Shown: positions 2,978-23,961 of the stretch, piece by piece | How the letters are laid out: each line of letters opens with the position of its first letter | Numbering within the stretch: position 1 is the first letter of the stretch | Origin: Pseudomonas lini | Lineage (GTDB): Bacteria; Pseudomonadota; Gammaproteobacteria; Pseudomonadales; Pseudomonadaceae | Direction of reading: 5' to 3' | DNA: 64,000 nucleotides | Assembly (NCBI RefSeq): GCF_964063345.1 | Contig: NZ_OZ061318.1 | Coordinates: forward strand, 5,890,001-5,954,000 | Made by a program: the position numbers and the translations under genes | Notes under the pieces: model-generated | Databases searched by the model: none | What the model saw: the letters and a program-made list of their open reading frames with translations, nothing else | Told to the model about the DNA's origin: nothing

Positions 2978-4222
2978 TCATTTGAATGACGCCGGAGGCA
3001 AGCCATGGGTGAACACCTTGGCGCTGAATATTGTCGCTCCTTGCCCCTTATCTCCATCACTGGTGACGGAGTACAAGGTGTTCGTATTGGGATCAATGGC
3101 GAGGCTAGTCGATAGCAGGTTGTGCCCTTGTTCGCGCCCCGGCAGCAGCACCTGGCCAATCGGGATACCGATCTGGTTAAAGACCATTACACGACCTTGC
3201 CCATAGATCGCCACATAGACATTGCCATCGGCGTCGACCCGCATCGAATCGGGGGAGGGCCCCGTGAAACGGTAGGGGATGGACGAACTGATGGTGGCGA
3301 TGGTAGTAGCGTTGGCCAGGTCGATGCGATGTAGAAGGTTGCGGCCAAATTCGGTTGCCCACAGCGTTTTTCCGTCTGGACTTAGCGTTACGCCGTTGGC
3401 CATCGAGAGATGGGGCAAGACGACAACAGGAGGCGAAAGATCGGGAGAAACGTAATAGATCCCGCCCTTTGGCTCGGTCGAGATACCTTTGAAATCACTG
3501 AAGTAGAAACCACCCTGTTTGTTGAACGCCAAGTCATTGGGCATGAATCCGGTGTCTTGCGCGATGATGGTTTGCATTCCCGTGCCATCGGGTTTGACCG
3601 CGAAAATCGCGCCGAGGTTGCGGTTCAGATCGAGAGCCGCGATGAACAGACGTCCGTCGGGATGAAATGCCAGTCCGCCAGGGGAGAGGTTCTCTATCGT
3701 GGCTACGATTGAAAGCTGTTTGGTCGGCGAGAGGCGAAGTACGCGTTTACCCGAAACATCACAGAAAAGCAGGTTGCCCTCGCGGTCAAATATCGCGCCT
3801 TCCAGTATCCGACCTTCGTTGGATGCTTTGAACCAGGTTTGAGCAGTAACCGTTGGAAGGCCTCGTTCCGATACTGGAATGGGTACAGGGCTTTGTGTCT
3901 GCTTGTCGTAGGCCAATGCTGAAGAGGCGGGGAGTTGTCCAGCGTATGCGCCTGTAGCGATGCCGGCGGCGCCGATAGCCAGACAGGCCAGCAGGCTGCT
4001 TAGCTGGAGCTTTCTGAGCACTCCAGGGACACGAGCGCTGCTTCTTCTATCCGAACGTTTCCTACCGGCATGAATGCTTGTCGTGTTGATCGCTGTGTGC
4101 ACCGCAGGCATGTCGAGTTGTGTCAGCGTGGGTAAAGCGGTCGTAGCGAATAGCCGGCTGGGGGGCGCGCCGGATATCGGCGCGACCAGCCCTTTGAAAT
4201 TGAACGTTACGCCAATGCTCAT
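2978..4222 (-). CDS. Exported SMP-30/gluconolactonase-like beta-propeller protein
   Basis: A predicted lactonase-type six-bladed propeller. The chosen ATG (MSIGVTFNF) has GGAG eight bases upstream; an ATG four codons earlier is less well placed. An unusual ~70-residue Ser/Arg-rich leader precedes a hydrophobic stretch (about residues 75-95, LSSLLACLAIGAAGIATGAYA) that looks like a signal peptide with a late start. The propeller carries family motifs: LEGAIFDREGNLLF, GGLAFHPDGRLFIAA, NDLAFNKQGGFYFSDF, MANGVTLSPDGKTLWATE and PDSMRVDADGNVYVA. These include Glu, Asn and Asp residues that bind the divalent metal in SMP-30 enzymes. The gene at 60993-62015 is a clear paralogue. It is 58 bp upstream of the PQQ dehydrogenase, so it probably hydrolyses that enzyme's lactone product in the periplasm. 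Confidence 0.82.
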   Translation of the reverse strand: MSIGVTFNFKGLVAPISGAPPSRLFATTALPTLTQLDMPAVHTAINTTSIHAGRKRSDRRSSARVPGVLRKLQLSSLLACLAIGAAGIATGAYAGQLPASSALAYDKQTQSPVPIPVSERGLPTVTAQTWFKASNEGRILEGAIFDREGNLLFCDVSGKRVLRLSPTKQLSIVATIENLSPGGLAFHPDGRLFIAALDLNRNLGAIFAVKPDGTGMQTIIAQDTGFMPNDLAFNKQGGFYFSDFKGISTEPKGGIYYVSPDLSPPVVVLPHLSMANGVTLSPDGKTLWATEFGRNLLHRIDLANATTIATISSSIPYRFTGPSPDSMRVDADGNVYVAIYGQGRVMVFNQIGIPIGQVLLPGREQGHNLLSTSLAIDPNTNTLYSVTSDGDKGQGATIFSAKVFTHGLPPASFK

Positions 4223-4366
4223 AACGAACTCCATTGTGCAAAGCCTTTTACTCCCCCTCAGGGGCGTAGACTTGTTTATTGTTTGATAGGGTGAAGCTGT
4301 GTTTCTTGCGCGCTAACGTTGGGCACACGACCAGCGAATGTCAGTCCGCCGGAGGGAACCCCTACT

Positions 4367-5119
4367 TCAAATCTCTTCCCGTGGGTACTGGAGCACGAGG
4401 ACCTCGGCACCTTCGCCACCTGCTTGGATCTCGAACTTTTCCTCAGTTGATTCCACGACGATCATGGACCAGAGAGGAAGCTCTTCTTCGCCATGCAGCA
4501 CGCTGCCGTTTCCGACGAAAACGTAATAACCGGATGCAATACCAGGGGGCGGACCGTCCACTTTCATACCAGCGCCCAATCGCAATACCTGAGCGCGCAG
4601 CCCATCTGCCTCATCTTCAAAAAGCAGTTCCCAACTCGCTTCTTCGCGGGCCTGCATCACAGGGGCAATGGAGAACTTGATGGGCTCGGACGTCAGGTGC
4701 CGGCGTTTGCTGGGACGCAGTTGCTCCCGGTAGCCAGGTTCACTCAAATAGACCGGTTGGGAGTTTCCGGTGTACATCCGCATGGCAACGAAGGACAGCC
4801 CTTGCGGACCCGCCACGATCGGTCCGTAAGCCGTGTGATGATCTTTGAACTGGACGGTGAGCGGTTCAAGTACCTGCCCGCGATTACCCAGTGTGCCACT
4901 GCCAGCGATGAACAACTGAAACATCGACACCCCGTGGAAATGAGGCACTACTGCTTCGTGTGCTCTGAGTTCAGACATTGTCGCCTGGGGGCCTGGGGCC
5001 CGCTCTTGAGAGCTCCGCGGGCCAAAGAAGGTCGTTCCCCAATGCTGGTTTCCGGTACCGGGCGAAACGATAACGCTCCGATTTGCAAGGGCGTCTGCCC
5101 CACTGCGCGTGTAAATCAT
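4367..5119 (-). CDS. Cupin-domain protein
   Basis: A 250-residue protein when started at the ATG at 5119, which has AGGAG eight bases upstream; the longer open frame to 5329 would run through the operator region. The first half holds a cupin metal-site motif (HEAVVPHFHGVSMFQLFIAG, with two or three His plus Gln/Glu candidates). The second half (about residues 150-245) resembles a second, more degenerate beta-barrel ending GEGAEVLVLQYP. Function is not recognisable: it could be a small dioxygenase, an isomerase or a sensor of the pathway substrate. It is first in the leftward operon with the lactonase and PQQ dehydrogenase, directly behind the palindromic operators in the shared promoter region. 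Confidence 0.72.
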   Translation of the reverse strand: MIYTRSGADALANRSVIVSPGTGNQHWGTTFFGPRSSQERAPGPQATMSELRAHEAVVPHFHGVSMFQLFIAGSGTLGNRGQVLEPLTVQFKDHHTAYGPIVAGPQGLSFVAMRMYTGNSQPVYLSEPGYREQLRPSKRRHLTSEPIKFSIAPVMQAREEASWELLFEDEADGLRAQVLRLGAGMKVDGPPPGIASGYYVFVGNGSVLHGEEELPLWSMIVVESTEEKFEIQAGGEGAEVLVLQYPREEI

Positions 5120-5233
5120 CACCAATGCTCCTATTGAATCTGCATGTATGCAGGACAAATCAACCGTCCATACGAGGCCGTAGCGTGCCCTCGGTCGACG
5201 CAAAATCATACTAGCATGTGTTTTGATAATTAG

Positions 5234-5260
5234 CACAAGTTTCAATAGGTGAAACTTGTG
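5234..5260. promoter_or_regulatory. Operator palindrome, site 1
   Basis: A perfect inverted repeat, CACAAGTTTCA-N5-TGAAACTTGTG, with 11-bp arms and spacer ATAGG. The inner core GTTTCA-N5-TGAAAC recurs at 5319-5335 and, less perfectly, at 19699-19715 and 23786-23802. There is no T-tract, so it reads as a protein-binding site rather than a terminator. Confidence 0.75.
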
Positions 5261-5317
5261 AGTGGCAGATTCGTGCTGAGTTAGCGCCGGTGCAAGCTTG
5301 TGTAAGATGGTGTTTGT

Positions 5318-5336
5318 GGTTTCATTCATTGAAACC
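5318..5336. promoter_or_regulatory. Operator palindrome, site 2
   Basis: A perfect inverted repeat, GGTTTCA-N5-TGAAACC, with spacer TTCAT. It shares the 6-bp half-sites and the 5-bp spacing of site 1 exactly. It lies about 145 bp upstream of the acyl-CoA ligase start. Confidence 0.72.
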
Positions 5337-5479
5337 TATTCCAAAAATAATTGACTTTCGTCTGGCTGCGGACGACAGTGCACCGTGGCAGCTCTGCTTT
5401 TGGGGAGAGCAGAGAAACGACTGCATCTCTTTACCTCGTCTCCCGATTTTCGATAGCGATCAAGGGCTTCAGTACCGAT

Positions 5480-7594
5480 ATGAATAATTACAAAAACTTG
5501 CTTGAACCACGTTCGATTGCGGTTGTAGGCGTGTCGGAGGATGCGGGACGTCCCGGCTCTCAGGCCGTAAGAGCTCTGATGAGCAATGGATACACCGGCG
5601 CGATCTATCCGGTGAATCCCAAATACGAAACCTTTGAAGGTTTGAAGTGCTATGGGTCCGTTGCCGATATCGAAGGCGACGTCGACCTCGTGGTGGTTGG
5701 CGTTCCTGCGCAGGGCGTTTTAGCCGTGCTGGAATCGAGTGCGCAGAAGAAGGTTCCTTTTGCGGTGGTTCTGAGCGGTGGCTTTCGAGAGAGCGGTCCG
5801 GAAGGGATTCTCCGTGAGGAGAAAATGCTCGCGATTGCCCGGGCGGCGGGCATGCGTATTATCGGGCCCAACTGCCTCGGTTTTGCCAACATCCATTCTC
5901 GTGTCTACGCCGCATTCGGCAGCATTACGCGTGAACCGAAACTCGAGAAAGGGTCGGTATCGCTGGTGACGCAGAGTGGGGGATTCGGCTACAGCATCGC
6001 CCTTGCATGTGCCGAAGCCGGTATTGGTTTCCGGCATGTCATCGCGACGGGCAACGAAAGCGATGTCAACACGGTACAGCTCATTGAGGCGCTGCTTGAT
6101 GATGACGAGACACACACCATCGTCGCCTATATCGAGGGAACCAATGACGGTCGTGCGCTGTTGGAAATCGGCCGCAAGGCTACGGCGCGCGGCAAGCCGA
6201 TCCTGCTGTGGAAGGGGGGCGTCACCGAGCAGGGCGCACTAGCGGCCGCATCGCATACCGCCAGCATGACGGGTGTCTATGATTTCTATCGTGCCCTGTT
6301 CAAGCAAACGGGGATCGTCGAGATCAGAGAGATCCATGAAGCGGTGGATTTCCTCAAGGCATTGGAAAGCAAAAAATACCCGGACAATGGGGGGGTCGCG
6401 GTGATGGGGGTATCGGGCGGGTCTGCGATCGTATTCGCAGATGCGGGTGAGCCTGAAGGTCTGACCTTGTGTGAACTTGGTAACGATACCCAGCAAAAGC
6501 TGCTGGCGGTCGTACCTAACATCGGGGCCGTCCATAATCCAATCGACCTTACCGCAGGGTATTTTTCAGCGGCCAATGCGCAGAAGTTGGAAGCCGCTGT
6601 AAGCGCGACGCTTGAAGACCCCGCCGTAGGATCGCTTTGCATTAACCTGGCAACCACAGGCGCCTCTGGCAGCCTGGCGGCAGCCCAGGTATTGGCCCGA
6701 ATTGCCGCGTCGGCGTCGAAGCCGATCCTGGTTTTTTCCTCAGCCCCCAGCGTTCAGATTGCAGAGGCGCTGCGTGTATTCGCTGATGCGGGAATTCCGG
6801 TGTTGCCTTCGCCGTCGCGAGCCGCCAAAGCTATCGCAATGCTGATGCGATTCAAGCGGACTCAATCGCGCATTTTGCAGATGCAAGAGGATGAGGGGCT
6901 CAAAGTAGAGCGAGCTTCTGTACCGCTTAGCACCGCCGTTGGCAGTCGGTCATCGTTGTCCGAGGTCGAGTCCAAGGAAATGCTGCGTTCCATCGGGATC
7001 CCCGTCACAACCGACCTGATCGTGAAGGGTTTTGACGCTGCGCTGTTCGACAAAGTCAAAGCGCCACTAGTCGTCAAGATTGTCTCTGCGGACATTGCGC
7101 ACAAAACCGAAATAGGCGGCGTAAAGGTCGGCATTCGGACTGCCCAGGAGCTGGAGTCAGCGATCGAGCAGGTGTTAGCCAACGCGCAACGGCATGTGCC
7201 TGCCGCCCACATTGAAGGTGTCCTCGTTTCCGAGATGGTGACAGGTGGCTTCGAACTGATTGCCGGGGTGGTCAAGGATCCTTCATTTGGCCCGGTGGTG
7301 GTAGTCGGCGCAGGTGGGATTTATGCGGAAGTACTGAAGGATTCCGCGTGTCGAATCGCCCCTTTCGGCCTGCCAACCGCTATGGAAATGCTCGATGAAT
7401 TGCAATGCAGCGTGATCATGAACGGGGTTCGGGGCGCGCCTCCCCTTGACGTCGATGCTGTTGCCCGCGCGTTGGTGGCGTTATCGCAGTTTGCCTGGGA
7501 GCAGCGCAGCGATATAGCCGAAATCGACATCAATCCAATGTTTGTATTGCCCCACGGTGTGATTGCCGCGGACGCCTTGATTGTGCGCGGTTAA
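5480..7594 (+). CDS. ADP-forming acyl-CoA synthetase (acetate--CoA ligase family)
   Basis: A 704-residue single-chain NDP-forming acyl-CoA ligase. It converts an acid, CoA and ATP to acyl-CoA, ADP and phosphate. The start at MNNYKNLLEPRSIAVVG was chosen because the family's CoA-binding Rossmann domain begins there (GVSEDAGRPGSQAVR, residues ~14-28). The succinyl-CoA-ligase-like part follows, with the phospho-histidine candidate in ALAAASHTASMTG. The ATP-grasp domain occupies roughly residues 480-704 (KIVSADIAHKTEIGGVK, VVVVGAGGIYAEV, AEIDINPM). It is first in an operon with a 2Fe-2S reductase and two crotonase-fold enzymes, so it most likely activates the pathway's carboxylic acid. The ribosome site is weak. 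The acid substrate cannot be deduced. Confidence 0.87.
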   Translation: MNNYKNLLEPRSIAVVGVSEDAGRPGSQAVRALMSNGYTGAIYPVNPKYETFEGLKCYGSVADIEGDVDLVVVGVPAQGVLAVLESSAQKKVPFAVVLSGGFRESGPEGILREEKMLAIARAAGMRIIGPNCLGFANIHSRVYAAFGSITREPKLEKGSVSLVTQSGGFGYSIALACAEAGIGFRHVIATGNESDVNTVQLIEALLDDDETHTIVAYIEGTNDGRALLEIGRKATARGKPILLWKGGVTEQGALAAASHTASMTGVYDFYRALFKQTGIVEIREIHEAVDFLKALESKKYPDNGGVAVMGVSGGSAIVFADAGEPEGLTLCELGNDTQQKLLAVVPNIGAVHNPIDLTAGYFSAANAQKLEAAVSATLEDPAVGSLCINLATTGASGSLAAAQVLARIAASASKPILVFSSAPSVQIAEALRVFADAGIPVLPSPSRAAKAIAMLMRFKRTQSRILQMQEDEGLKVERASVPLSTAVGSRSSLSEVESKEMLRSIGIPVTTDLIVKGFDAALFDKVKAPLVVKIVSADIAHKTEIGGVKVGIRTAQELESAIEQVLANAQRHVPAAHIEGVLVSEMVTGGFELIAGVVKDPSFGPVVVVGAGGIYAEVLKDSACRIAPFGLPTAMEMLDELQCSVIMNGVRGAPPLDVDAVARALVALSQFAWEQRSDIAEIDINPMFVLPHGVIAADALIVRG

Positions 7595-7662
7595 TGAGCC
7601 GCCCCCAAGCTTGTCGCGAGAAAGAGCAATGTACAAAACATTCTGTAAAGGGGTGAATCGCT

Positions 7663-8703
7663 ATGAATGACAGTCTGTCCGCCACATTGACGCATCGGGT
7701 CAATGTGAAGCCTATCGACCGCACGTTCGAGGTGCAGCAAGACGATACGATACTTGCTGCCGCCCTCAAAAGCGGGTGTCAACTGCCCTACAGTTGTCAA
7801 AATGGCATCTGCGGAACCTGTCGGGCCAAAGTACTCGACGGGGTGGTCGATCATGCGGAGTCCAGCATGGCGATACTTTCCAACGAGGACCGGCAGCAGG
7901 GATACGCGCTCCTGTGCCAGGCAAAGGCTTTAACCGCATTGACGATCGCCTGCGAGGTGGTGGAAGCAACACAAGACATCCCTATTCGACGGCTTGTTTC
8001 CCGTGTCGATCGTCTTGAGCGCCTGGCCGAGGATGTGATGAGAATTCGCCTACGCCTCCCTGCCAAGGAGTCTTTCAGGTTTTTGCCTGGGCAATACATC
8101 AACGTCGTGATGCCAGGCGGTATTCGTCGCAGTTTGTCGCTGGCAAACGTGCCCGACGACAACGTGTTGGAATTGCATCTCAGGAATTACGGTGGCCCGT
8201 TTAGCCAACACGTTTTCAATGTCATGAAAGAAAACGACCTGGTGCGCCTTGAAGGCCCGCTAGGTACTTTTTTTGTGCGTGAAGACAGCAGCAAACCAAT
8301 GGTCTTCGTTGCCAGCGGCACAGGGTTCGCACCGATCAAAGCCATGATTGAGCGCGAACTTGAAAAAGCATCGAGTCGTGAAATAACGCTCTATTGGGGC
8401 GGGCGAAGGGCCTCGGATCTGTATTTGAGTTCCGTTGCCGAGGCTTGGACGAAAAGTCACAACGTCACGTTCATACCTGTCCTGTCAGAAGCGCACCCCG
8501 ACGACCTATGGGAAGGTCGGGTCGGCTTTGTTCACCGTGCAGTCATGGAAGATTACGAGGATCTTTCCCAGCATCAGGTCTATGCCTGTGGAGCGCCCAT
8601 CGTCGTGCAATCGGCAAGGCAGGATTTTGTGGCGTTACGCAACCTCCCCGAGGAAGAGTTCTTCGCGGACATGTTTGTGTCGGGACAAAAGGCTGTCCAG
8701 TAG
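7663..8703 (+). CDS. 2Fe-2S ferredoxin/FAD/NAD(P)H reductase, oxygenase-reductase type
   Basis: A 346-residue electron-transfer flavoprotein. Residues 1-90 form a plant-type ferredoxin with Cys45-x4-Cys50-x2-Cys53-x31-Cys85. An FAD-binding barrel follows with RRSLSLAN (~156), then an NAD(P) domain with VFVASGTGFAPI (~210) and the closing YACGAP motif. The architecture is that of reductases serving non-haem oxygenases and of CDP-6-deoxy-hexoseen (AscD/RfbI-type) reductases. An AAGGGG-type ribosome site precedes the ATG. It lies between an acyl-CoA ligase and two crotonases. No oxygenase or P450 partner is visible anywhere in the window, so its electron acceptor is unknown; the rubredoxin at 26222 is one candidate. 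Confidence 0.83.
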   Translation: MNDSLSATLTHRVNVKPIDRTFEVQQDDTILAAALKSGCQLPYSCQNGICGTCRAKVLDGVVDHAESSMAILSNEDRQQGYALLCQAKALTALTIACEVVEATQDIPIRRLVSRVDRLERLAEDVMRIRLRLPAKESFRFLPGQYINVVMPGGIRRSLSLANVPDDNVLELHLRNYGGPFSQHVFNVMKENDLVRLEGPLGTFFVREDSSKPMVFVASGTGFAPIKAMIERELEKASSREITLYWGGRRASDLYLSSVAEAWTKSHNVTFIPVLSEAHPDDLWEGRVGFVHRAVMEDYEDLSQHQVYACGAPIVVQSARQDFVALRNLPEEEFFADMFVSGQKAVQ

Positions 8704-8754
8704 AACTCGTGTCGTGTGTCTCGATTGAAAATAAAAACAAGCACGTGGAGGAAG

Positions 8755-9492
8755 ATGTCCGTGGATGAACTAGCCAGCGAGTTGACGGTTGAGCGACATG
8801 AGTCGCTCCTGTGGATCACTCTGAATCGTGCCGCCAAGGCGAATGCCATGACGGTGGATATGATGGAGCGTGTGACGGCTGCACTGCAGGCAGCCACTGA
8901 TGACCCGCAGATAAACGCGGTGATGCTGACCGGCTCTGGCGAGCGCGTGTTCTGCGCAGGGGTCGATATTCGTGAACAACCGGCGGACGGTGATACGGCA
9001 CGCCAGCGTGAACGAAGGTCGTTAGCGTTGGCGGCGCTGCAGGACGCCGTGATGGACTGCCCCAAGCCAGTTGTCACAGTGCTCAATGGTACCGCGACGG
9101 GAGGTGGCGCGATGCTTGCGCTCTTGGCGGATGCCTGTGTCGCCGTCGATACCGCGAAACTGTCGTTGCCCGAAATTGATTTGGGTATCGCCACCTTCTC
9201 GGGTGCGAACATTTTAGAGGTCATCGGCGGACGCGCTTTGGCGCTTGATCTGATTCAGAGCGGCAGGGCGATGAAGGCTACCGAAGCATTGGCGAGAGGG
9301 CTGGTCCGCGAGGTAGCCCTGCGAGACGAACTCCATTTGAAAGCTTCGGCGCTGGGGCAGGCGTTGGGGGCAAAGAACCCGCGCACGTTTGCCGAAAACA
9401 AGCGGTGGCTCAATCGTTCGCTGAGAGCTGCATTGTTGCAGGCTCGGGACGAGCATGCACGACACCGTGCACTGGCTCAGGCCGAGCAATAG
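8755..9492 (+). CDS. Enoyl-CoA hydratase/isomerase family protein
   Basis: A 245-residue crotonase-fold protein. The ATG at 8755 has GGAGGA five bases upstream, better than the in-frame start 13 codons earlier. The oxyanion-hole segments are visible: ERVFCAGVDIRE near residue 63 and GTATGGGAMLALLADA near 105. The second catalytic-Glu region reads LSLPEIDLGIATFSG, so one Glu of the usual hydratase pair is kept while the first position (GGGAM) carries none. That pattern fits an isomerase or a specialised hydratase/lyase rather than a standard enoyl-CoA hydratase. It is third in the ligase/reductase operon and is followed by a second crotonase. Confidence 0.8.
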   Translation: MSVDELASELTVERHESLLWITLNRAAKANAMTVDMMERVTAALQAATDDPQINAVMLTGSGERVFCAGVDIREQPADGDTARQRERRSLALAALQDAVMDCPKPVVTVLNGTATGGGAMLALLADACVAVDTAKLSLPEIDLGIATFSGANILEVIGGRALALDLIQSGRAMKATEALARGLVREVALRDELHLKASALGQALGAKNPRTFAENKRWLNRSLRAALLQARDEHARHRALAQAEQ

Positions 9493-9552
9493 CGCAGCGG
9501 GCAACGAGTGTGGTTTTGCACGGGCGGCGTGTCCATATCGAACTGAGGGAAT

Positions 9553-10350
9553 ATGATGTCTGATCTAGAAGTCAGTACCGTTGGCCGGGTCATGGTAGCC
9601 AAGCTAAACCGGCCCGAAAAAAAGAACGCCTTGAGCGAGAGCATGCTGGATTCACTTCGCACTGCATTGCTGGCTGCCGATGAAAATGATGACATCGGTT
9701 GTTTCGTCATCACCGGTGCCGGTGATGCATTCTGCTCCGGAGGCGACCTGGGCCGTCGGGCCGCCGAAAGCGCAGAGGGGGATCCAACGCCGCTCGAGCG
9801 TAAAATCAGATTGCAAAAAGTCACCCACCAGGTGGCATTAGCGATCGAGAGCTTTGAAAAGCCACTCATTGCGGCGGTAAACGGCGCGGCGGTGGGGGCG
9901 GGCATGGATCTTTCGTTGCAGTGCGATATGCGTTTCGCATCAGAGTCGGCTCGATTTGCTGAGGCTTATATTCGTGTTGGCCTGATCCCTGGAAATGGCG
10001 GTTGCTATTTGCTGCCGCGCATAGTCGGTACCGCGAAAGCCCTGGAATTATTATGGACGGGCGATTTCGTCAGTGCTGAAGAGGCGTTGGCATTGGGCAT
10101 CGTCAACCGAGTATTCAGTGATGACGAGCTCATGCAGCAAACGCTGGATTTTGCTACACGCCTGGCGGATGGCCCTCCCATCCAGCAACGCAGCATAAAG
10201 AAGCTGCTATACCAATCGCTGCGGACCGATTTACGGACGAGCTTGGAGTCGGTGGCTGCGCAGATGGCCGTGGTGCAATCCACGGATGATTACAAGGAGG
10301 CCATCAAAGCTTACAAGGAAAAAAGGAAACCGCGTTTTATCGGCAAATAG
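9553..10350 (+). CDS. Enoyl-CoA hydratase/isomerase family protein
   Basis: A second crotonase-fold enzyme of 265 residues (or 264 from the adjacent second ATG). Motifs include KLNRPEKKNALSESM, DAFCSGGDLG (~57) and GAAVGAGMDLSLQCDMRFA (~115), then ARFAEAYIRVGLIPGNGG. The last is closest to PaaG/isomerase-type members, which have AEA in place of the classical PE. The C-terminal helices (QQRSIKKLLYQSL) are normal. It ends the acyl-CoA ligase operon and is followed by a hairpin. The two consecutive crotonases probably act on successive or alternative acyl-CoA intermediates. Confidence 0.82.
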   Translation: MMSDLEVSTVGRVMVAKLNRPEKKNALSESMLDSLRTALLAADENDDIGCFVITGAGDAFCSGGDLGRRAAESAEGDPTPLERKIRLQKVTHQVALAIESFEKPLIAAVNGAAVGAGMDLSLQCDMRFASESARFAEAYIRVGLIPGNGGCYLLPRIVGTAKALELLWTGDFVSAEEALALGIVNRVFSDDELMQQTLDFATRLADGPPIQQRSIKKLLYQSLRTDLRTSLESVAAQMAVVQSTDDYKEAIKAYKEKRKPRFIGK

Positions 10351-11338: not shown

Positions 11339-11528
11339 ACAAGGCGCGGTCGCCAGCCGTCTCGATGTGCCTCCGTTCTCGAGTTCGGTGGGTGGAACTG
11401 AAGTTGGCGAGTGAAATAGCGTCATGCTAGTATGTTATTTTGAGACTGATTCTCGTTTGTTGGCGAATGAAGCATTTCGTGTCGAGGAGGATCGTTACGA
11501 TCAACGATTTTGATGGGGTTTTTCAAGA

Positions 11529-12284
11529 ATGATGCGCTCTGTGCAACGTATCTTGGCAGTTTTCGAAAGCTTTAGTTCAGACCGCAGCAGCCTTACGCTT
11601 CAAGACATTGCAGACCGTATCGAGCTACCGAAGTCGACGACGTTTCGTATTGTCCAGAGTCTTGAAAAGGCTGGCTACCTGGTACGTCTCGAGCAGCAAT
11701 ATTGCTTGTCCTTCCGGTTCACGCGCTTGGCTGGCCTGGTAAAAAGTACCCTGGGTATTCGTGAGATCGCTCGACCCGTATTGCAAGAACTCGCTGAGCA
11801 GACTGAAGAAACAGTCTCCATCCATGCGGTGAGTGATCGCAATCGAGTCTGTCTCGACTCGGTCACTACCAGCTCGGCACCGTTGCGCGCGGTGGTCCAG
11901 GCGGGTGAACAGATTCCCTTGTTGGTAGGGTCTGCTTCAAAGGTCTTGATGGCCTATATGCCCAAAGCCCAGCTCACCCCGTTAGTCAAAAATGTTGCCA
12001 AAGCGACGAAGCGCACCAATGGCGCGGTGCTTGAAGAGTTCGCCATGATCCGGGAGCAGGGTTATGCCGTTTCCCATGGCGAACGGCTGTTAGGCATCTC
12101 GGCGATCTCGGTACCCATCAAGGACGTCAATCAAGAAGTGCACTATTGCTTGTCGGTGGGGGCACCGACTGTCCGAATGAACATGAATGAAAAGGAGTTT
12201 ATCGAGTTGGCAGTCAAAGGTGCCGAAGTCATATCGCGACAATTCGGTGGAGAGGTGGCCTTGCCCGCCCCTACATCCGACTGA
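11529..12284 (+). CDS. IclR-family transcriptional regulator
   Basis: A 251-residue IclR protein. The winged helix starts right at the N-terminus (SVQRILAVFESF, LTLQDIADRIELPKSTTFRIVQSLEKAG). The C-terminal effector-binding domain includes LVGSASKVLMAYMP and ISAISVPIKD. An in-frame stop just upstream supports the start near 11529, although the obvious GAGGAGG lies about 45 bp further up. IclR proteins usually bind short palindromes, so this is my preferred candidate for the GTTTCR-N5-TGAAAC sites in module 1. No copy of that site is found in front of the gene itself. Confidence 0.88.
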   Translation: MMRSVQRILAVFESFSSDRSSLTLQDIADRIELPKSTTFRIVQSLEKAGYLVRLEQQYCLSFRFTRLAGLVKSTLGIREIARPVLQELAEQTEETVSIHAVSDRNRVCLDSVTTSSAPLRAVVQAGEQIPLLVGSASKVLMAYMPKAQLTPLVKNVAKATKRTNGAVLEEFAMIREQGYAVSHGERLLGISAISVPIKDVNQEVHYCLSVGAPTVRMNMNEKEFIELAVKGAEVISRQFGGEVALPAPTSD

Positions 12285-16324: not shown

Positions 16325-17659
16325 TCAATTGCAGTTGGAGGAGGGCTTGAACTGAACCGCGGAAATAGAGCTGTAGAACGTGCTCAAGTCTTTTATCGGG
16401 ACGGGTTCGCTGATCTGATGATCCGCTTGCTCGAAGAGGCTTCGTGCAGCATTGGCGATCAACATGGGAGCGCCAAGATCGTTGCCGCGCAAACAGGCCG
16501 CTTTGAGGATGGTTTTTTCGCTCGAGAGTGCCGTGTTATCCAGGGCGTGACTGGATAACAATTGGGTATAAATAGAGCGAGAGGATTCACTCCATCCCGA
16601 TGTCTTTTCCAGGACCAGTGCCATGTCTTCCAATGCCAGCCCATATCGCAGGCCTGCCGCCGTGCATTCATAAGTAATCGCGCTGCATAGCGATGCGATC
16701 GCACCTGTGACCAGCTCGATGGCGTGATCTTCAGGGCACGCTTGAGGGGCACCATCCGTGTTCGGCGTCACGGCATCGCCGTCGTACAATTTTGTCGCCG
16801 CCATGCTTTCGATGAGCCCGACCATGTCTTCGAGCTGCGCGTTTGGCCCCAAGGTGTTGGTTCCGATTTGCAACAATGCCCTGACCAGAGCGGTTAGCGG
16901 CATCGGGACATCCCTGGACATTCCCAGCGCGACGGCTTGATCGACGTCTTTGAGCATCAAAGCGAGGGCGAAATTGGTGGAGGGTTTTCCCTGGGCGAGC
17001 GCGGGCAGCATCCTGTCTGTGGTTTGATTTCGCGCTTTGTTGCGGTTCAACACGTCCGCCATCAGGGGCAGTGAAAGGCCGGCTTTTTTGCCCATGGCCA
17101 CGACCTCAAGGGTCCCTAGTCGGCAGCCAGCATTCATGGCGTTGTTGACCATTTTCATGGCTTGGCCGTCGCCGACCCTGTCGCCACAACGATAAATCGT
17201 TTGGGTAATAACTTGTAAAACGGGGAGGGCGCGCTCGTAAACCGTATCCGAGCCCGCAACCATCAGCGTGGCTTTGCCTTCGGCAACGACCAGCGGACTT
17301 GCAGACACCGCAGCATCCATCATGTCGATACCGCGTTCGGCCAGTTCTTCGGCCATACGTCTGGTCTCACCCGGAATGCCACTTGTCTGATCAATGATCA
17401 GTGTCCCCGGCACCAATCCGGCCGCGAGGCCGTTTGGACCGAACAGCGCAGACCTGACGTCCGAGCTGCGTGGCAGGCACAGGAAGATGACGTCACACCG
17501 GCGAGCCAGGTCGGCCGCCGTGGGCGCGACGTCGGCGCCCAGTTTCTTGAACGTGTCGACGGCGGCCGTGTTGATATCCCACACGCATAACGAGTGAGAC
17601 AGGAATCGACGAGCGAGTTGACTGCCGAGGGCACCGAGTCCGATGTATCCGATTTTCAT
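16325..17659 (-). CDS. NAD(P)-dependent beta-hydroxyacid dehydrogenase with extra C-terminal domain
   Basis: Residues 1-290 form a standard 3-hydroxyisobutyrate/tartronate-semialdehyde-type dehydrogenase. The Rossmann motif is IGYIGLGALGSQLARR. The substrate-binding segment is DAAVSASPLVVAEGKATLMVAG, and the catalytic-lysine helix is AMKMVNNAMNAG. At 444 residues it is about 150 longer than the family norm. The extra part (about residues 300-444: AITYECTAAGLRYGLAL, LEKTSGWSESSRSIYTQLL, KAACLRGNDLGAPMLIAN) looks like a second copy of the helical dimerisation domain. It is last in the CapA/SDR operon. It probably oxidises or reduces a 3-hydroxy acid or semialdehyde intermediate; the substrate is unknown. 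Confidence 0.82.
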   Translation of the reverse strand: MKIGYIGLGALGSQLARRFLSHSLCVWDINTAAVDTFKKLGADVAPTAADLARRCDVIFLCLPRSSDVRSALFGPNGLAAGLVPGTLIIDQTSGIPGETRRMAEELAERGIDMMDAAVSASPLVVAEGKATLMVAGSDTVYERALPVLQVITQTIYRCGDRVGDGQAMKMVNNAMNAGCRLGTLEVVAMGKKAGLSLPLMADVLNRNKARNQTTDRMLPALAQGKPSTNFALALMLKDVDQAVALGMSRDVPMPLTALVRALLQIGTNTLGPNAQLEDMVGLIESMAATKLYDGDAVTPNTDGAPQACPEDHAIELVTGAIASLCSAITYECTAAGLRYGLALEDMALVLEKTSGWSESSRSIYTQLLSSHALDNTALSSEKTILKAACLRGNDLGAPMLIANAARSLFEQADHQISEPVPIKDLSTFYSSISAVQFKPSSNCN

Positions 17660-17768: not shown

Positions 17769-18545
17769 CTAAAGCAATGAACCGATCATGCCGCCATCAA
17801 CGCTGATGCTCGATCCAGTGATGAAACCCGCCTGTGTGGATGCGAGAAACGCGACCACGCCACAGACCTCGTCTTGCTCCCCCATGCGGCCGAGCGGTGT
17901 GAGTTTGCGGCGTGCCTCTGCCTGCTCCGGGGTGTACGCGGCGGTGCCGGTGCGGTGCGATGTGTCGATCAATGCCGGCGCTACACAATTGACAGTGATG
18001 CCGCAAGAGCCCACCTCGTTCGCGAGATGTTTCATGTACGCGGTGACGCCGGCGCGAAAAACGGTTGAAAGGCTATGGTGCGGCATGGGCTGCTTCACCG
18101 ATGCCGAGGTAATGGCGATGACGCGACCCCATTGTTTCTTGAGCATCTGAGGAACCATTTCCTTGGCGACCTGGATGGTCCCCCAGAGTTGATTTTGATA
18201 GGCCTCTTGCCACCGTTCCTCTTCAGTTTCGTCGAGCGTCGCCCGCAGCGGATTGGGGGCTCGTCCCGTGTTCAGGACGAGGATGTCGGTGCCGTTGAAT
18301 GTAGCGTTCACCGTGTCGGCGAGGCGCTTTACATCAGCGGCGACGCGCATGTCGCCGGGAACCGCGACTGCACGCACGCCGTGCTTTGCCGTTATTTCCT
18401 GGGCGAGGGCGGTCAGTTTGTCCGCCGAACGTGCAAACAGCACCACATGAACGCCCTCGGCTGCCAGCGCGTGAGCAATGTTTTTGCCTAAACCTGCGCT
18501 GGCGGCGGTGATGACTGCCACTTTTCCGTTGATCTTCAAGTCCAT
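17769..18545 (-). CDS. SDR-fold oxidoreductase with altered catalytic motif
   Basis: A 258-residue short-chain dehydrogenase-fold protein. It has the nucleotide motif TAASAGLGKNIAHALAAEG, the NTG segment LNTGRAPNP and the C-terminal SISVDGGMIGSLL. The usual Tyr-x3-Lys is missing: after ITSASVK the active-site helix reads HHSLSTVFRAGVTAYMKH, so the Tyr position is Ser and the Lys position is Arg. A similar replacement is known from a divergent SDR branch. Here it may mean a different reaction or a non-catalytic role. GGAG stands eight bases before the ATG, inside the end of the CapA-like gene, so the two are translationally linked. Confidence 0.82.
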   Translation of the reverse strand: MDLKINGKVAVITAASAGLGKNIAHALAAEGVHVVLFARSADKLTALAQEITAKHGVRAVAVPGDMRVAADVKRLADTVNATFNGTDILVLNTGRAPNPLRATLDETEEERWQEAYQNQLWGTIQVAKEMVPQMLKKQWGRVIAITSASVKQPMPHHSLSTVFRAGVTAYMKHLANEVGSCGITVNCVAPALIDTSHRTGTAAYTPEQAEARRKLTPLGRMGEQDEVCGVVAFLASTQAGFITGSSISVDGGMIGSLL

Positions 18546-18548
18546 GAT

Positions 18549-19664
18549 TTACTCCGACACGATGATTTCATTGCCTTCGACGCTGAATCGATGTGGCATG
18601 TCTTCGGAGGCCCACTCCAGGTAGGAAAGCACTTCCTGGAATCGAGGATCGTCGTGATTCAGCACTTCAGGCCGATACCGTGCGTCCATGACCATCGGAA
18701 GGAACGAAACCTTTTGTATGCCGTCTTTGGTCGCCACTGCTTTGGCGAGCAAGCTCAACGTACAGGCCTTGCCGTAGGGCATAAAAGGATATTCGGGATC
18801 GAGGTCCGCGTGATTGCGAACCGCACCGTGAGACCAGGCGGGCTCGCTCCATGAAGGCGCGGGAAACGACTTGGTCATTGCGAACACGCCGAGACTGTAG
18901 AAGACGGCTTTGCCCTTATACATCTCGATCGCTTTGGGAATATGCGGTGCGTGGCACGCCACCATATCTGCACCTGCATCAATGGCAGCATGGGCTACGG
19001 TCACCTGGTAATCGGAGATCACGCGCGGCAGCCGGATGACGCCGGAGTGAAAAGCCAGGATAACGACGTCTACCTCACCTTTCAGCTTCTTGATGTCCTC
19101 GACCAGGTTCGCCAGGTCGCTGGAGTCAGGTTCCGTGCGAATGCGAACGGGCTGGTGGGGACCTCGTGTTTCATAGGAGGTATCGACCTTGATACTGGTC
19201 ACGCCAGGTTTTTGCAGTCCTGCCTCGCTGCCGGCAGGACCGAGCGAGGTATAGCCCAAGTAACCGACCTTGATGCCGTCGTGTTCAATGATGGCTGGAC
19301 GTCGTGCTTCTTCCAGATCCCGACCTGCGCCTGTCACCTGGATGCCGCGCGAGACAAAAAAGTCCCGGGTATCCACGAGGGCATCCGGGCCGCTGTCGTA
19401 GCTGTGATTGTTTGCCAGAGTCACCGCGTCGAACCTGCCATTGGTGAAAATAGCAGCCATTTCAACGGGCTGACCGACTTGAGGGGCATGGTCTGCGCGC
19501 ACGGTGCGATCCGAGTAGGTGCGCATGCAGTTGATGAAACGCATATCGGCCGAGGCAAGAGTCGGCAGGACGAGTTCTGTGTACCCCTCCACCGGGAAGC
19601 CGTCTTTCGCTCCATGCGTGGGGCCGCAGTCCCCGCCGATCAGTATGGTGGCGTTCGATGTCAT
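18549..19664 (-). CDS. CapA-family (poly-gamma-glutamate synthesis type) metallophosphatase-like protein
   Basis: A 371-residue CapA-family protein with a calcineurin-like fold. Metal-site motifs are present: ILIGGDCGPTHG near the N-terminus, VTLANNHSYDSG (~90-100), ILAFHSG and VACHAPHIPKAIEMYKGK, ending with VFYSLGVFAM. There is no obvious signal peptide or membrane helix, unlike CapA/PgsA of capsule operons. AGGAGG sits just before the ATG. It is first in a three-gene leftward operon with an SDR and a beta-hydroxyacid dehydrogenase, behind a palindromic operator at 19699. A catabolic hydrolase role on a small ester, lactone or phosphate is more plausible here than capsule synthesis, but this is inference. 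Confidence 0.78.
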   Translation of the reverse strand: MTSNATILIGGDCGPTHGAKDGFPVEGYTELVLPTLASADMRFINCMRTYSDRTVRADHAPQVGQPVEMAAIFTNGRFDAVTLANNHSYDSGPDALVDTRDFFVSRGIQVTGAGRDLEEARRPAIIEHDGIKVGYLGYTSLGPAGSEAGLQKPGVTSIKVDTSYETRGPHQPVRIRTEPDSSDLANLVEDIKKLKGEVDVVILAFHSGVIRLPRVISDYQVTVAHAAIDAGADMVACHAPHIPKAIEMYKGKAVFYSLGVFAMTKSFPAPSWSEPAWSHGAVRNHADLDPEYPFMPYGKACTLSLLAKAVATKDGIQKVSFLPMVMDARYRPEVLNHDDPRFQEVLSYLEWASEDMPHRFSVEGNEIIVSE

Positions 19665-20025
19665 TTTTCCCTCCTATTATTTTTGTGGGAAATTTATGGT
19701 TTCGATCAATGAAACAGATGCTGCTAGATAGAACTAATAATAGCACCGCGAAAACGGCATGACCACGATTTGTACAGGCATCATGTCGTTGGATAAAGAG
19801 TCAGTCTGGATTTTCGTGGTTCTGATGATTGGAACAGGTATCGATAATAAGAACATGTGATAGTATCGATTTTGACATCCGTCCGGGCGCAGGCGTTACC
19901 TACCTGACCGTCTCTATGGCAGGTCGAGGGTCGACACCTGTTCAGGAAAACGACGTTGGTGCCAGTCTACTATTTGAAATTATCAGTTAGTTCAATCGCT
20001 TACATGAAAATAAGAGAGGGCGGAA
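19665..20025. promoter_or_regulatory. Divergent promoter region of capA-like operon and SDR
   Basis: This 361-bp region separates the leftward CapA-like operon from the rightward SDR. It contains a good operator (19699-19715) close to the CapA-like start and a weaker related palindrome (19819-19835, GTTCTG-N5-TGGAAC) near the middle. It holds no gene that I can support. Confidence 0.6.
19699..19715. promoter_or_regulatory. Operator palindrome, site 3
   Basis: The sequence is GTTTCG-ATCAA-TGAAAC: the half-sites and 5-bp spacer of sites 1 and 2 with a single mismatch. It lies 35 bp upstream of the CapA-like ATG, just before a CATAAA-type -10 candidate, where a bound repressor would block transcription. 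Confidence 0.65.
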
Positions 20026-20865
20026 ATGGCAAGGTCACTGGATCAAACGCAGGGGCACACACCGGCAGGGCGGCTTGCCGGGAAAGTTGCTGTTGTTATT
20101 GGTGCTGGACAAAGCCCGGGCGAAGGCATGGGTAACGGTCGAGCGGCGGCCATTCGATTTGCGCGTGAAGGGGCGCACGTCCTGGCCGTTGATCGGCAAA
20201 TCGAGTCCGCTGAGGAAACTGCGGCGATGATCATTCAAGAGGGCGGCTCCGCTGCAGCATTTTCTGCGGATGTGACCCGGGAACACGAGTTGGCCCTTGC
20301 CATGCAGATGGCAAAAAAACGTTGGGGGTCCCTGGACGTCCTGCACAACAATGTGGGGGTCAGCCTCGCCGGTGGTGACGGCGACTTGATGGACATCACC
20401 GAAGATCAGTTCGATAACATTTGCCGTATCAATCTTCGCGGTACCGTCTTTGCTTGTAAGCACGCAGTAGCAATCATGCGTGAACAAGGGGGCGGGGTTA
20501 TCGTCAATGTGTCATCCGCGGCGGCATTGGGTAAGTATCCCTATGTAACGTACAAGGCTACAAAAGCGGGTGTCATTGCTTTCACCGAGCAGTTGGCGCT
20601 TCAAAATGCCCCTTATGGGATCAGGGCGAACTGCATCCTGCCAGGCTTGATCTCGACGCCGATGGCGGTCGAGGCGCGTATTCAAGCGTGGAACCAGACG
20701 CGTGAGCAGGTCAGCGCGGAGCGCAACGCCAAGGTGCCGCTCGGCCGCCAGGGAACCGCTTGGGATGTTGCGAACGCGGCCCTGTTTCTTGCGTCCGATG
20801 AAGCCAATTTCATCACGGGTATCTCATTGGCGGTGGACGGCGGCCGGTTGCTCAATCGTATTTAA
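20026..20865 (+). CDS. SDR-family NAD(P)-dependent oxidoreductase
   Basis: A 279-residue classical short-chain dehydrogenase. The cofactor motif VIGAGQSPGEGMGNGRAAA is slightly expanded relative to TGxxxGxG. NNVGVSLAGGDG is the NAG-type segment, and the catalytic set VSSAA...YKATK is intact. The C-terminus SLAVDGGRLLNRI is typical. A GAGGGCGG ribosome site precedes the ATG. It is a single rightward gene divergent from the CapA-like operon and convergent with the beta-propeller lactonase. It probably oxidises a secondary alcohol intermediate of module 1. Confidence 0.86.
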   Translation: MARSLDQTQGHTPAGRLAGKVAVVIGAGQSPGEGMGNGRAAAIRFAREGAHVLAVDRQIESAEETAAMIIQEGGSAAAFSADVTREHELALAMQMAKKRWGSLDVLHNNVGVSLAGGDGDLMDITEDQFDNICRINLRGTVFACKHAVAIMREQGGGVIVNVSSAAALGKYPYVTYKATKAGVIAFTEQLALQNAPYGIRANCILPGLISTPMAVEARIQAWNQTREQVSAERNAKVPLGRQGTAWDVANAALFLASDEANFITGISLAVDGGRLLNRI

Positions 20866-20917: not shown

Positions 20918-22090
20918 TCAACGTAGCCCGACAATACCCATCCAGTACTGAAGTTGATTTCCTGGCGTCTCGACATCAACGCTTCGAGCGTACTTGAGAT
21001 GCCCGTCATCACCTATCCGGAATATCGACAGTGTCGCGGGCGTTACGGTCAGCCCTTTTTCATCATCGTATGCGGCCAAGGCCTTGATACTCGCCGTGAC
21101 GAGCAAGCGGCCACTGGGATCACAGGCAAATGTTCGGACGTGAAAGGAACGAGTGTCCACATGCTGAACAAGTGTGGGCTCGCCTGTTTCAGGGTTGATA
21201 GCGTAGACGGCTATGTTGTTTTCACCTCCGGAGAACACTGGGCGCCCCTGGTGGGAGTGCGTCGCATCTGCGCGATTTACCAGGTAAACAAACTTCCCGC
21301 TTGGATGGACATGGATTGCACCGGCGAGTTGTCGTGGGTGCACGTGCTCAGGGGTTCGCAGCGTTCCCCGCGTGAAGGCTGGCTCGGCCTCGATCCGGTC
21401 ACCGTCATGTCGGAACATGTAGAGACGGTTGGTTCGCTCGTCGGCTGCGTAAAGCCATGGATGCGTCGGATGAAAGTCGACATGCCGCGGGCCGAAGTCA
21501 TGGCCATGATTCGGCGCAACCACATCGCTCATTTGGAGATGTTCTTCAGTTAGCCGAAATGAACGGAGTGCCCCGGGATCTTCCAGCTTGTCTGTCGTTG
21601 CGTTATTGCCGCGGTCAACTACCAGGACGTGTTTGGCGGATGGATAAAACATGACCTGGTGCGGATAGACCCCAAAGTCGGTGTTCGGATCCTGAGCCTG
21701 GCAGCTGCCAATTGTGCAGTCTGCGTTGATGCGGTGCACAGTCAATGAGCCGCGCTTGAAATTGTGGGCATTGACGATAAATCGTCCCAGGGGGTCGATA
21801 CACAAATGTACCGCTCGGTAGGGAAGTCGCGCAGGTAAGCCGTGAGTGTTGAGTTGCCCGTCAGGTCCCAACGAGTAAGCGCTGACTTGATTGTGATGGG
21901 ACTCCACCCTCGGGCCACCGTCGCTTGTTGAGACATACAGGAAGCCGCCGGATGGATGAGGCCATGCGTATTGCACCTTTGAGGCCACAGTGACGCTTTC
22001 CATCCTGTGGAGCGTTGCGCTGTCTACGTCAATCATATAGCGCGTGATGACATCACCTACGGCGCTGTAGAGTACGGCGCGGCTGCTCAT
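20918..22090 (-). CDS. Lactonase-family beta-propeller protein (6-phosphogluconolactonase-like fold)
   Basis: A 390-residue seven-bladed propeller of the YbhE/lactonase family. Recurrent blade motifs include HPSGGFLYVSTSD, LCIDPLGRFIVNAHN, FHPTHPWLYAADERTNRLYMF, IHVHPSGKFVYLVNRAD and FACDPSGRLLVTASI. There is no signal peptide, so it should act in the cytoplasm, unlike the SMP-30 protein at 2978. Such proteins hydrolyse sugar lactones or carboxy-muconolactones. It is the last gene of the thiolase/DUF35 operon, starting directly after the DUF35 stop. A lactone step in the CoA-dependent branch, or on a muconolactone-like intermediate, is possible. Confidence 0.82.
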   Translation of the reverse strand: MSSRAVLYSAVGDVITRYMIDVDSATLHRMESVTVASKVQYAWPHPSGGFLYVSTSDGGPRVESHHNQVSAYSLGPDGQLNTHGLPARLPYRAVHLCIDPLGRFIVNAHNFKRGSLTVHRINADCTIGSCQAQDPNTDFGVYPHQVMFYPSAKHVLVVDRGNNATTDKLEDPGALRSFRLTEEHLQMSDVVAPNHGHDFGPRHVDFHPTHPWLYAADERTNRLYMFRHDGDRIEAEPAFTRGTLRTPEHVHPRQLAGAIHVHPSGKFVYLVNRADATHSHQGRPVFSGGENNIAVYAINPETGEPTLVQHVDTRSFHVRTFACDPSGRLLVTASIKALAAYDDEKGLTVTPATLSIFRIGDDGHLKYARSVDVETPGNQLQYWMGIVGLR

Positions 22091-22504
22091 TCAAGCCTCC
22101 GAATGGTCAATGGTGAACATGGGAACGGACATGCCGCTTTCTGATTCTTTAAACGCGACCCTGACCCGCTGCCCGATGCGAACACTGTCCAGATCAACAT
22201 CGACAATGTTCGTAAGCATCATCAGTCCCTCGTCGAGGCGCACATAGGCAATGCAGTACGGTGCTGATGCGCCACGTCGTGTGATGCTGAAGGTGTAGAT
22301 CGCCCCAGTCCCGCTTGCGGTGATCCATTCGACATCGGTGCTCCAGCAAAACGGGCACAACGCACGAGGATAATGATGCGGTTGATGGCAGGCATTGCAG
22401 CTCTTCAAGAGCAGACGCCCCTCGGTCGCCGCGTCGAAATAGGGTTCATCACCGGGGTTCAGGATGGGGTCGCTGATGGGGCGTTCTGTGTAGGGGGTCG
22501 ACAT
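22091..22504 (-). CDS. Zn-ribbon/OB-fold (DUF35) partner protein of thiolase
   Basis: A 137-residue DUF35 protein. An N-terminal rubredoxin-like zinc ribbon has Cys36-x2-Cys39 and Cys50-x2-Cys53, and an OB-fold follows (SGTGAIYTFSITRRGA, YCIAYVRLDEG, GQRVRVAFKE). The ATG at 22504 has GGGAG at good spacing; the longer frame would overlap the thiolase. DUF35 proteins pair with SCP2-type thiolases, as in the Ltp2 aldolase of steroid side-chain degradation and in HMG-CoA synthesis in archaea, forming a channel for acyl-CoA. It starts 4 bp after the upstream thiolase stop, so the two gene products very likely form one complex. Confidence 0.88.
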   Translation of the reverse strand: MSTPYTERPISDPILNPGDEPYFDAATEGRLLLKSCNACHQPHHYPRALCPFCWSTDVEWITASGTGAIYTFSITRRGASAPYCIAYVRLDEGLMMLTNIVDVDLDSVRIGQRVRVAFKESESGMSVPMFTIDHSEA

Positions 22505-22508
22505 GTTT

Positions 22509-23678: not shown

Positions 23679-23785
23679 CTCTAGGGTTTCCTCAGTGCAT
23701 GAAGATGAAGCTCGAATGTGCTTTCCGGTACCTTCGTTCAGGGGGGGGCGGCCCACCGTAAAAGACAAAAGTAGTATGACGCAAA

Positions 23786-23802
23786 GTTCCGGTCAGTGAA
23801 AT
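23786..23802. promoter_or_regulatory. Operator palindrome, site 4 (imperfect)
   Basis: The sequence GTTCCG-GTCAG-TGAAAT has the same spacing as sites 1-3 with partly degenerate half-sites. It lies 108 bp from the thiolase start and 160 bp from the fused dehydrogenase start, inside their 283-bp divergent promoter region. Confidence 0.45.
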
Positions 23803-23961
23803 CTGTGCTGATTATCAAAACTCATGCTACCATCGATTCAACGTTGTTTGGAGCGCAGGATGGCGCTGCACTCAAATTTCCGGGCCAAACCAGGATGCTC
23901 ATTGGATGCGAGCGGTCGCGGGGTAGGGGCAGGCCTTATTTTTTTTTGACAGGAAGATGAG

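Follow-up and report, generated by a model that had tools for sequence, protein, structure and literature searches.

Putative operator palindromes and a candidate IclR-family regulator of a catabolic gene island in Pseudomonas lini

The DNA studied here, a stretch of 64,000 nucleotides from Pseudomonas lini (hereafter the window), carries two identical pairs of inverted half-sites, GTTTCA-N5-TGAAAC, in a single divergent promoter region, and looser copies stand before other genes of the same module. The question is whether these palindromes are operators that join scattered genes into one regulon and, if so, which protein binds them. We consider it likely, with a probability of roughly 0.85, that they are operators of the IclR-family protein encoded at 11529, controlling as one regulon a catabolic island that was probably acquired laterally. 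The genes concerned, with operons presumed from strand and spacing, are the following.

484-2919, 2978-4234 and 4367-about 5119, minus strand: membrane PQQ dehydrogenase, SMP-30-like protein and conserved protein (presumed operon)
5480-10350, plus strand: ADP-forming CoA ligase family protein, Fer2/FAD/NAD reductase and two enoyl-CoA hydratase family proteins (presumed operon)
11529-12284, plus strand: IclR-family regulator (PF01614, PF09339; 251 aa), proposed binder of all operators
16325-17659, 17769-18545 and 18549-19664, minus strand: hydroxyisobutyrate-dehydrogenase-like, SDR and CapA-like proteins
20026-20865, plus strand: SDR oxidoreductase
20918-22090, 22091-about 22510 and 22509-23678, minus strand: 7-bladed lactonase-like protein, Zn-ribbon/OB protein and thiolase
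23962-26073, plus strand: marked rightward gene, divergent partner of the thiolase

The gene set also includes a hydratase/dehydrogenase fusion, while the conserved protein at 4367-about 5119 had no Pfam or NCBIfam match. The CoA ligase, the hydratases, the fusion, the thiolase with its OB partner, the lactonase-like proteins, the SDRs and the PQQ dehydrogenase would together fit a beta-oxidation-like breakdown of a carboxylic acid that includes oxidation and lactone steps. As sites of this kind also stand before these genes in distant soil bacteria, the scattered genes probably form one pathway under joint control.

Putative operator palindromes in the window

Five putative operators were located. 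Mismatches are given against the consensus of related clusters and scores against the promoter profile, both described below.

5239-5255, minus strand: exact GTTTCA-N5-TGAAAC, palindrome of the leftward element for the genes 4367-5119, 2978-4234 and 484-2919, inside the profile match 5203-5257
5319-5335, plus strand: exact GTTTCA-N5-TGAAAC, belonging to the rightward CoA-ligase operon, 18.0 bits
19699-19715, plus strand: 0 mismatches to GTTYCR-N5-YGRAAC, element directed rightward, away from the CapA-like gene, 27.5 bits
19819-19835, plus strand: 1 mismatch to GTTYCR-N5-YGRAAC, 29.3 bits
23786-23802, plus strand: 1 mismatch to GTTYCR-N5-YGRAAC, 50.1 bits, top match of the genome

The two exact palindromes differ from each other solely in their spacer letters. 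A scan of the whole genome (6,575,559 bp) found the strict pattern twice, both times in the 5239-5335 promoter, and the control with reversed halves not at all. The copy at 19699-19715 has one mismatch to the strict pattern and lies 35 bp ahead of the CapA ORF start at 19664. Those at 19819-19835 and 23786-23802 have 4 and 3 mismatches, respectively, and are therefore indistinguishable from chance by the strict pattern alone. When up to two mismatches were allowed, the window held five matches against a mean of 2.43 in shuffled sequence (9 of 100 shuffles were as high), and the genome held 231 against 152 for the control.

All three divergent gene pairs (4367-/5480+, 18549-/20026+ and 22509-/23962+) are marked by sites, as the initial annotation of this DNA had claimed. 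Its coordinates for the exact pair, for the one-mismatch copy before the CapA-like gene and for the looser copy at 19819 were likewise borne out. The copy between the thiolase and its divergent partner is also where it had been placed; described there as degenerate, it is the best example of the longer promoter element treated below.

The distance from operator centre to start codon is 43 bp for the CapA-like gene and 116 bp for the thiolase gene. In the divergent region corresponding to 5239-5335, operator pairs were compared between the window and ten loci (L033, L034, L035, L042, L052, L059, L060, L064, L066 and L068), where the distinct distances were 37, 38, 46, 67, 68, 80 and 89 bp. With a helical repeat of 10.5 bp, these values group around half-integral turns (resultant 0.84; p 0.003 against random spacing), the species being related and the values thus less independent.

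Consensus and promoter element in related clusters

Related loci (35) were taken from a scan of genome contigs and annotated by tblastn with 21 window proteins; 32 of them belong, judging by record titles, to the Burkholderiales. Two others, L036 and L037, are Pseudomonas loci with proteins 98-100% identical to those of the window, and were left out of the dyad, consensus, flank and layout counts as near-identical. A distant Rhodospirillaceae locus (L070, IclR 34% identical) entered the annotation and the dyad, consensus and flank counts and lies outside the 35 loci used in the contrast comparison below. It must be noted that five pairs of loci share one contig each and overlap, so that related sites cannot be taken as independent.

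Exact inverted repeats with spacers of 0-16 were counted, without any seed motif, in the regions upstream of annotated genes. Among 5-letter dyads in 192 regions exclusive of the window, GTTCC-N7-GGAAC (12) and GTTTC-N7-GAAAC (10) were the top two. Among 6-letter dyads, again with the window left out, GTTCCG-N5-CGGAAC came first (6), followed by GATGCC-N11-GGCATC (5), and GTTTCA-N5-TGAAAC tied for third place (4); with the window included the last rose to 6, two of which were the window's own exact sites. The top dyads merge into a wider consensus of the Burkholderiales clusters, GTTYCR-N5-YGRAAC, to which the sites at 5239, 5319 and 19699 conform fully. Exact copies of this consensus numbered 62 in 57,088 bp of upstream sequence (window left out) against none in 332,310 bp of coding sequence, its letters having been picked from the same upstream regions in which they were counted; the palindromic control with reversed halves occurred 0 times upstream and 3 times in coding DNA. 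The same consensus stands before the same genes in the Burkholderiales clusters, which supports the shared-operator regulon originally proposed for the window.

A contrast set consisted of eight of the 22 other thiolase records listed, each with a related thiolase (62-76% identity) and no IclR match in the stretch. It held no exact site in 193,497 bp, and five with one mismatch, versus 69 exact sites in 676,985 bp of the 35 IclR loci, an association that is partly built in because these loci were fetched by similarity to the IclR.

As a genome-wide marker, the degenerate 17-mer had to be rejected, its copies outside the window being at background level. It occurred 12 times in the P. lini genome, nine of them outside the window, against eight occurrences of the reversed control genome-wide; seven of the nine fell in frames running from stop to stop (366-704 aa), one overlapped a 141-aa ORF and one (L072) was in no long frame. 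In 33 of 40 genomes of the genus its count did not exceed that of the control, while in nine cluster genomes or records it was above the control in seven and below it in two. The refuting outcome named initially, a motif equally common in unrelated coding DNA, does not refute the strict pattern; with the degenerate consensus at background level, only a longer element is specific.

Alignment of the flanks of the relatives' sites showed that the palindrome is only part of a promoter element of about 55 bp. Two layouts were distinguished. Layout A comprises the palindrome, a third GRAAC-like half-site 19 bp past the right half and an extended -10 box, with no consensus -35, and is directed at the genes 4367, 20026 and 23962. 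Layout B, before the CoA-ligase operon, comprises the palindrome, a third box in the opposite orientation, a TTGAC -35 box, 17 nt and a -10 box. In the window the parts are as follows, their promoter role being putative.

5224-5220 and 5216-5208, minus strand: third half-site AAAAC and extended -10 TGC-TAGTAT of the leftward element, from the profile alignment
5338-5343, 5351-5356 and 5374-5379, plus strand: third box ATTCCA, -35 TTGACT and, after 17 nt, -10 GACAGT
19850-19854 and 19858-19866, plus strand: half-site AGAAC and extended -10 TGA-TAGTAT, toward the SDR gene 20026
23817-23821 and 23825-23833, plus strand: half-site AAAAC and extended -10 TGC-TACCAT, toward 23962

The layout A set was made up of 50 of the relatives' 143 sites, picked for TGNTA near +23, and layout B sites were picked for TTGAC, so that only the remaining features of each layout count as evidence. 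In layout A these are the third half-site and the AT that completes the extended -10, the latter present in 49 of 50. The half-site, RRAA, stood at +15 to +18 past the palindrome in 46 of the 50 elements (35 of 39 once near-duplicates were removed), whereas no other offset tested had it in more than 3 of 50. TGNTA in the gene's own direction was absent throughout, both from the 18 sites of CapA-like genes and from the 21 of thiolase genes; layout A therefore points away from both. For layout B, the start regions of 16 relatives' CoA-ligase genes held a site followed by TTGAC in 11 cases, a site without TTGAC in one, and no site within 331 bp in four. Ten distinct relatives and the window share the third box RTTYC in opposite orientation at +3 and the 17-nt gap between -35 and -10, the -10 being TANAGT in the ten relatives and GACAGT in the window. 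A simple sigma-70 consensus scan found no promoter in 5100-5500 and did not pick up the layout B boxes, which speaks against strong consensus promoters there.

A sequence-only profile (R1) of the 50 layout A elements, built without window sequence, was run on 40 genomes of the genus, that of P. lini included, with 137 candidates scored per genome. The five best matches in the P. lini genome were the five sites (23785+, 50.1 bits; 5257-, 40.4; 19817+, 29.3; 19697+, 27.5; 5317+, 18.0), and the sixth scored 13.5 bits. The best matches in the 39 other genomes reached 20.1, 19.9 and 19.0 bits, all above the fifth window site, so the layout B site at 5317+ is not distinctive by this profile alone. 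Corresponding hits occurred in L036 and L037 at four of the five places, within the stretches covered. No match was found in the eight contrast loci, among the matches listed, nor in the window outside the module. A weak copy of the element directly before iclR (11384-11436, plus strand) is a candidate autoregulatory site. It scores 13.5 bits, with an E value of 0.0035 for the window and a non-significant 0.37 for the genome.

Run on seven cluster loci, the profile further picked strong elements outside its training set, for example one of 47.8 bits at 22502 of L034. This element (22502-22557, Cupriavidus) is directed at a rubredoxin gene and at tcuAB (together 22689-25837), the latter annotated for tricarballylate use, and would extend the regulon to them in Cupriavidus. 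The second half of the window (26490-64000) had no match of the element and is thus not marked by the same operator; it encodes a fumarase, an isopropylmalate/tartrate-type dehydrogenase, an ABC transporter, a GMC oxidoreductase, a PrpD family protein and a second IclR at 55812.

The candidate regulator and alternative readings

The 251-aa product of 11529 has the domain make-up of the IclR family, with HTH_IclR (PF09339, 57.1 bits) and IclR_C (PF01614, 103.4 bits) in a protein of about 250 aa, and residues L33, P34, K35, S36, T37, F39 and R40 were invariant in 18 orthologs. With 119.2 bits it stays far below the cut-off (284.75) of the PcaR/PcaU/PobR model TIGR02431, a point of difference from those regulators. 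PcaR of Pseudomonas putida, an IclR-family protein, reportedly works as activator and repressor alike by way of the -35 and -10 elements, going by the title of a 1999 article by Guo and Houghton; its motif and target genes differ from those of the island.

GTTYCR-N5-YGRAAC was derived before the published IclR class was consulted. Group 1 palindromes of the family have the consensus GKTYCRYW3-4RYGRAMC, and one subgroup, GTT-11-AAC (GTTYCRYW3RYGRAAC), takes in 1364 sites of 54 ortholog groups; for 94 groups tandem sites were predicted, their centres separated by 18-22 nt, and for 32 groups three-box sites (Suvorova and Gelfand, 2021, PMC8222616, excerpted text). The 17-bp consensus of the island is that of this subgroup, the window sites showing 0 mismatches in three cases and 1 in two with the spacer YW3R unscored. 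Given that half-sites and spacing equal those of an IclR-family class, the binder is suggested to be an IclR protein, and IclR 11529 is supported as the best candidate, in agreement with its initial ranking as the best local one. The island differs from the GTT-11-AAC account, as far as the excerpted text goes, in that one half-site recurs as a direct repeat 19 bp on, within a promoter lacking a -35 box, and in that a single regulon has two promoter layouts (PMC8222616). Operators of the catabolic regulators PcaU, PobR and HmgR resemble those of the island in combining a palindrome with an external direct half-site repeat, which PcaU needs for binding, but the half-site letters of PcaU, TTTGTTCGATWATCGMACAMA, are different (PMC8222616, excerpted text). 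Window copies of this three-box arrangement have their third half-site at 5220-5224, 19850-19854 and 23817-23821. The PobR of PMC12285266 was dropped as a comparison, being annotated as AraC family in the portion of that article considered. Set against the excerpted text of PMC8222616 (181 groups), the island would be, as judged from sequence, a new regulon whose operators belong to a class already known.

Several other readings were weighed. That the palindromes are chance repeats would agree with the unremarkable window count at two mismatches taken alone, but the presence of the exact pattern just twice in 6.58 Mb, the unseeded dyads, the upstream enrichment and the held-out profile leave this practically no probability, and chance origin was rejected on the conservation in relatives and the held-out search. 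The LysR-type protein at 10406, formerly the second candidate, sits in the same gene run and could be thought to bind the palindromes and control the regulon. Matches to it (E up to 1e-60) were found in nine of 16 cluster genomes or records (100% identical in P. lini, with best matches of 52-71% in the other eight), and each of the Paraburkholderia loci L059, L060 and L064 has a palindrome some 150 bp ahead of its LysR gene. No such match was found in the remaining seven (G070, G062, G071, G073, G074 and plasmids W01 and W02), whose clusters do carry sites; in this search W01 and W02 were covered as records alone and 150 candidates were scored per genome, more than 150 being present in eight of the 16, among them G070 and G071. 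On this search, the linkage of LysR gene and sites is not conserved. Since, in addition, the consensus equals an IclR-family class (PMC8222616, excerpted text), LysR 10406 is disfavoured as main regulator and we regard this reading as very unlikely. The binder might instead be a different IclR-family protein of the host genome, for instance that at 55812, given that operators resemble each other across the family (PMC8222616, excerpted text) and that the genome holds six matches to the IclR 11529 query, itself included. Against this stand the lack of profile matches in the window outside the module, the low identity (23-30%) of the four own-genome paralogs among the matches listed, and the fact that in the Burkholderiales loci the sites neighbour the 11529 ortholog, though the loci were chosen by that ortholog; such a binder seems highly improbable. 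As a separate observation, LysR could be among the regulated genes in L059, L060 and L064, where the palindrome lies near 8800.

If IclR 11529 is the binder, a dimer or tetramer would contact the palindrome and the third box, and a pathway intermediate would change the state of the bound protein. Activation would be its effect at the layout A promoters, where a proper -35 box is missing, and probably at layout B as well, there from an upstream position. The CapA-like and thiolase genes, which face the other way, may be repressed by it in loci whose operator lies close to their start codons, and the protein may also bind ahead of its own gene. Tentatively, and at odds well short of even, we propose that this one protein reads two three-box layouts, drives two promoter classes and represses the opposite genes, each divergent region acting as a two-way switch. 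The sign of regulation is a guess and the least certain step, since a half-site placed between -35 and -10 is just as compatible with repression. In this regard, IclR 11529 might bind as a plain repressor at all promoters and be released by an inducer. The layout A half-site falls between the -35 and -10 positions, the operator centre in several loci is 23-51 bp from the start codon of the CapA-like or thiolase genes, and members of the family include repressors, activators and dual regulators. The layout A promoters, however, have no consensus -35, as is often the case in activated promoters, and the layout B operator is centred some 59 bp before the assumed start, upstream of a good -35. Plain repression throughout is accordingly possible but rather unlikely.

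Origin of the island and significance

Of 582 homologs of IclR 11529, the 120 listed were 66-100% identical, and all those with a named organism were Burkholderiales (Burkholderia, Cupriavidus, Caballeronia, Variovorax and kin). In 56 other genomes of the genus or order no close relative was found, but distant paralogs or none. As a close IclR occurred only in the P. lini genome among the 57 and the listed named homologs are Burkholderiales, the island was probably acquired laterally. The best annotated relative, plasmid pENH92 of Cupriavidus necator NH9 (L034), has much of the gene set, operators of this kind and an IclR 74% identical to that of the window. Unlike the window, it carries the rubredoxin gene and tcuAB beside an element, with no LysR ortholog found on the plasmid and no PQQ dehydrogenase match in the stretch covered.

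Among the contrast loci, a Rhizobium leguminosarum plasmid locus (L088) encodes CapA-like and SDR proteins 60 and 53% identical to those of the window, together with thiolase, OB, tcuAB, SMP-30 and tartrate dehydrogenase genes and GntR and LysR regulators, and has no exact operator. It may represent a related pathway under other control. A further gene set lies on a plasmid with tfd genes, presumably pJP4. Beside the tfd genes there are an IclR gene, a chimeric gene that joins an IclR HTH portion to a hydratase/dehydrogenase portion, a thiolase gene and COG1545 genes, which resemble a remnant of this kind of cluster (PMC6449761, one passage). In the literature searched (open-licence papers) we recognised no published description of the cluster itself.

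With these results, scattered genes become one testable regulon common to Pseudomonas and many Burkholderiales. A regulator and its exact sites are named, and the sequence profile lets further members be found. The inducer of IclR 11529 would, in turn, point to the substrate of the pathway.
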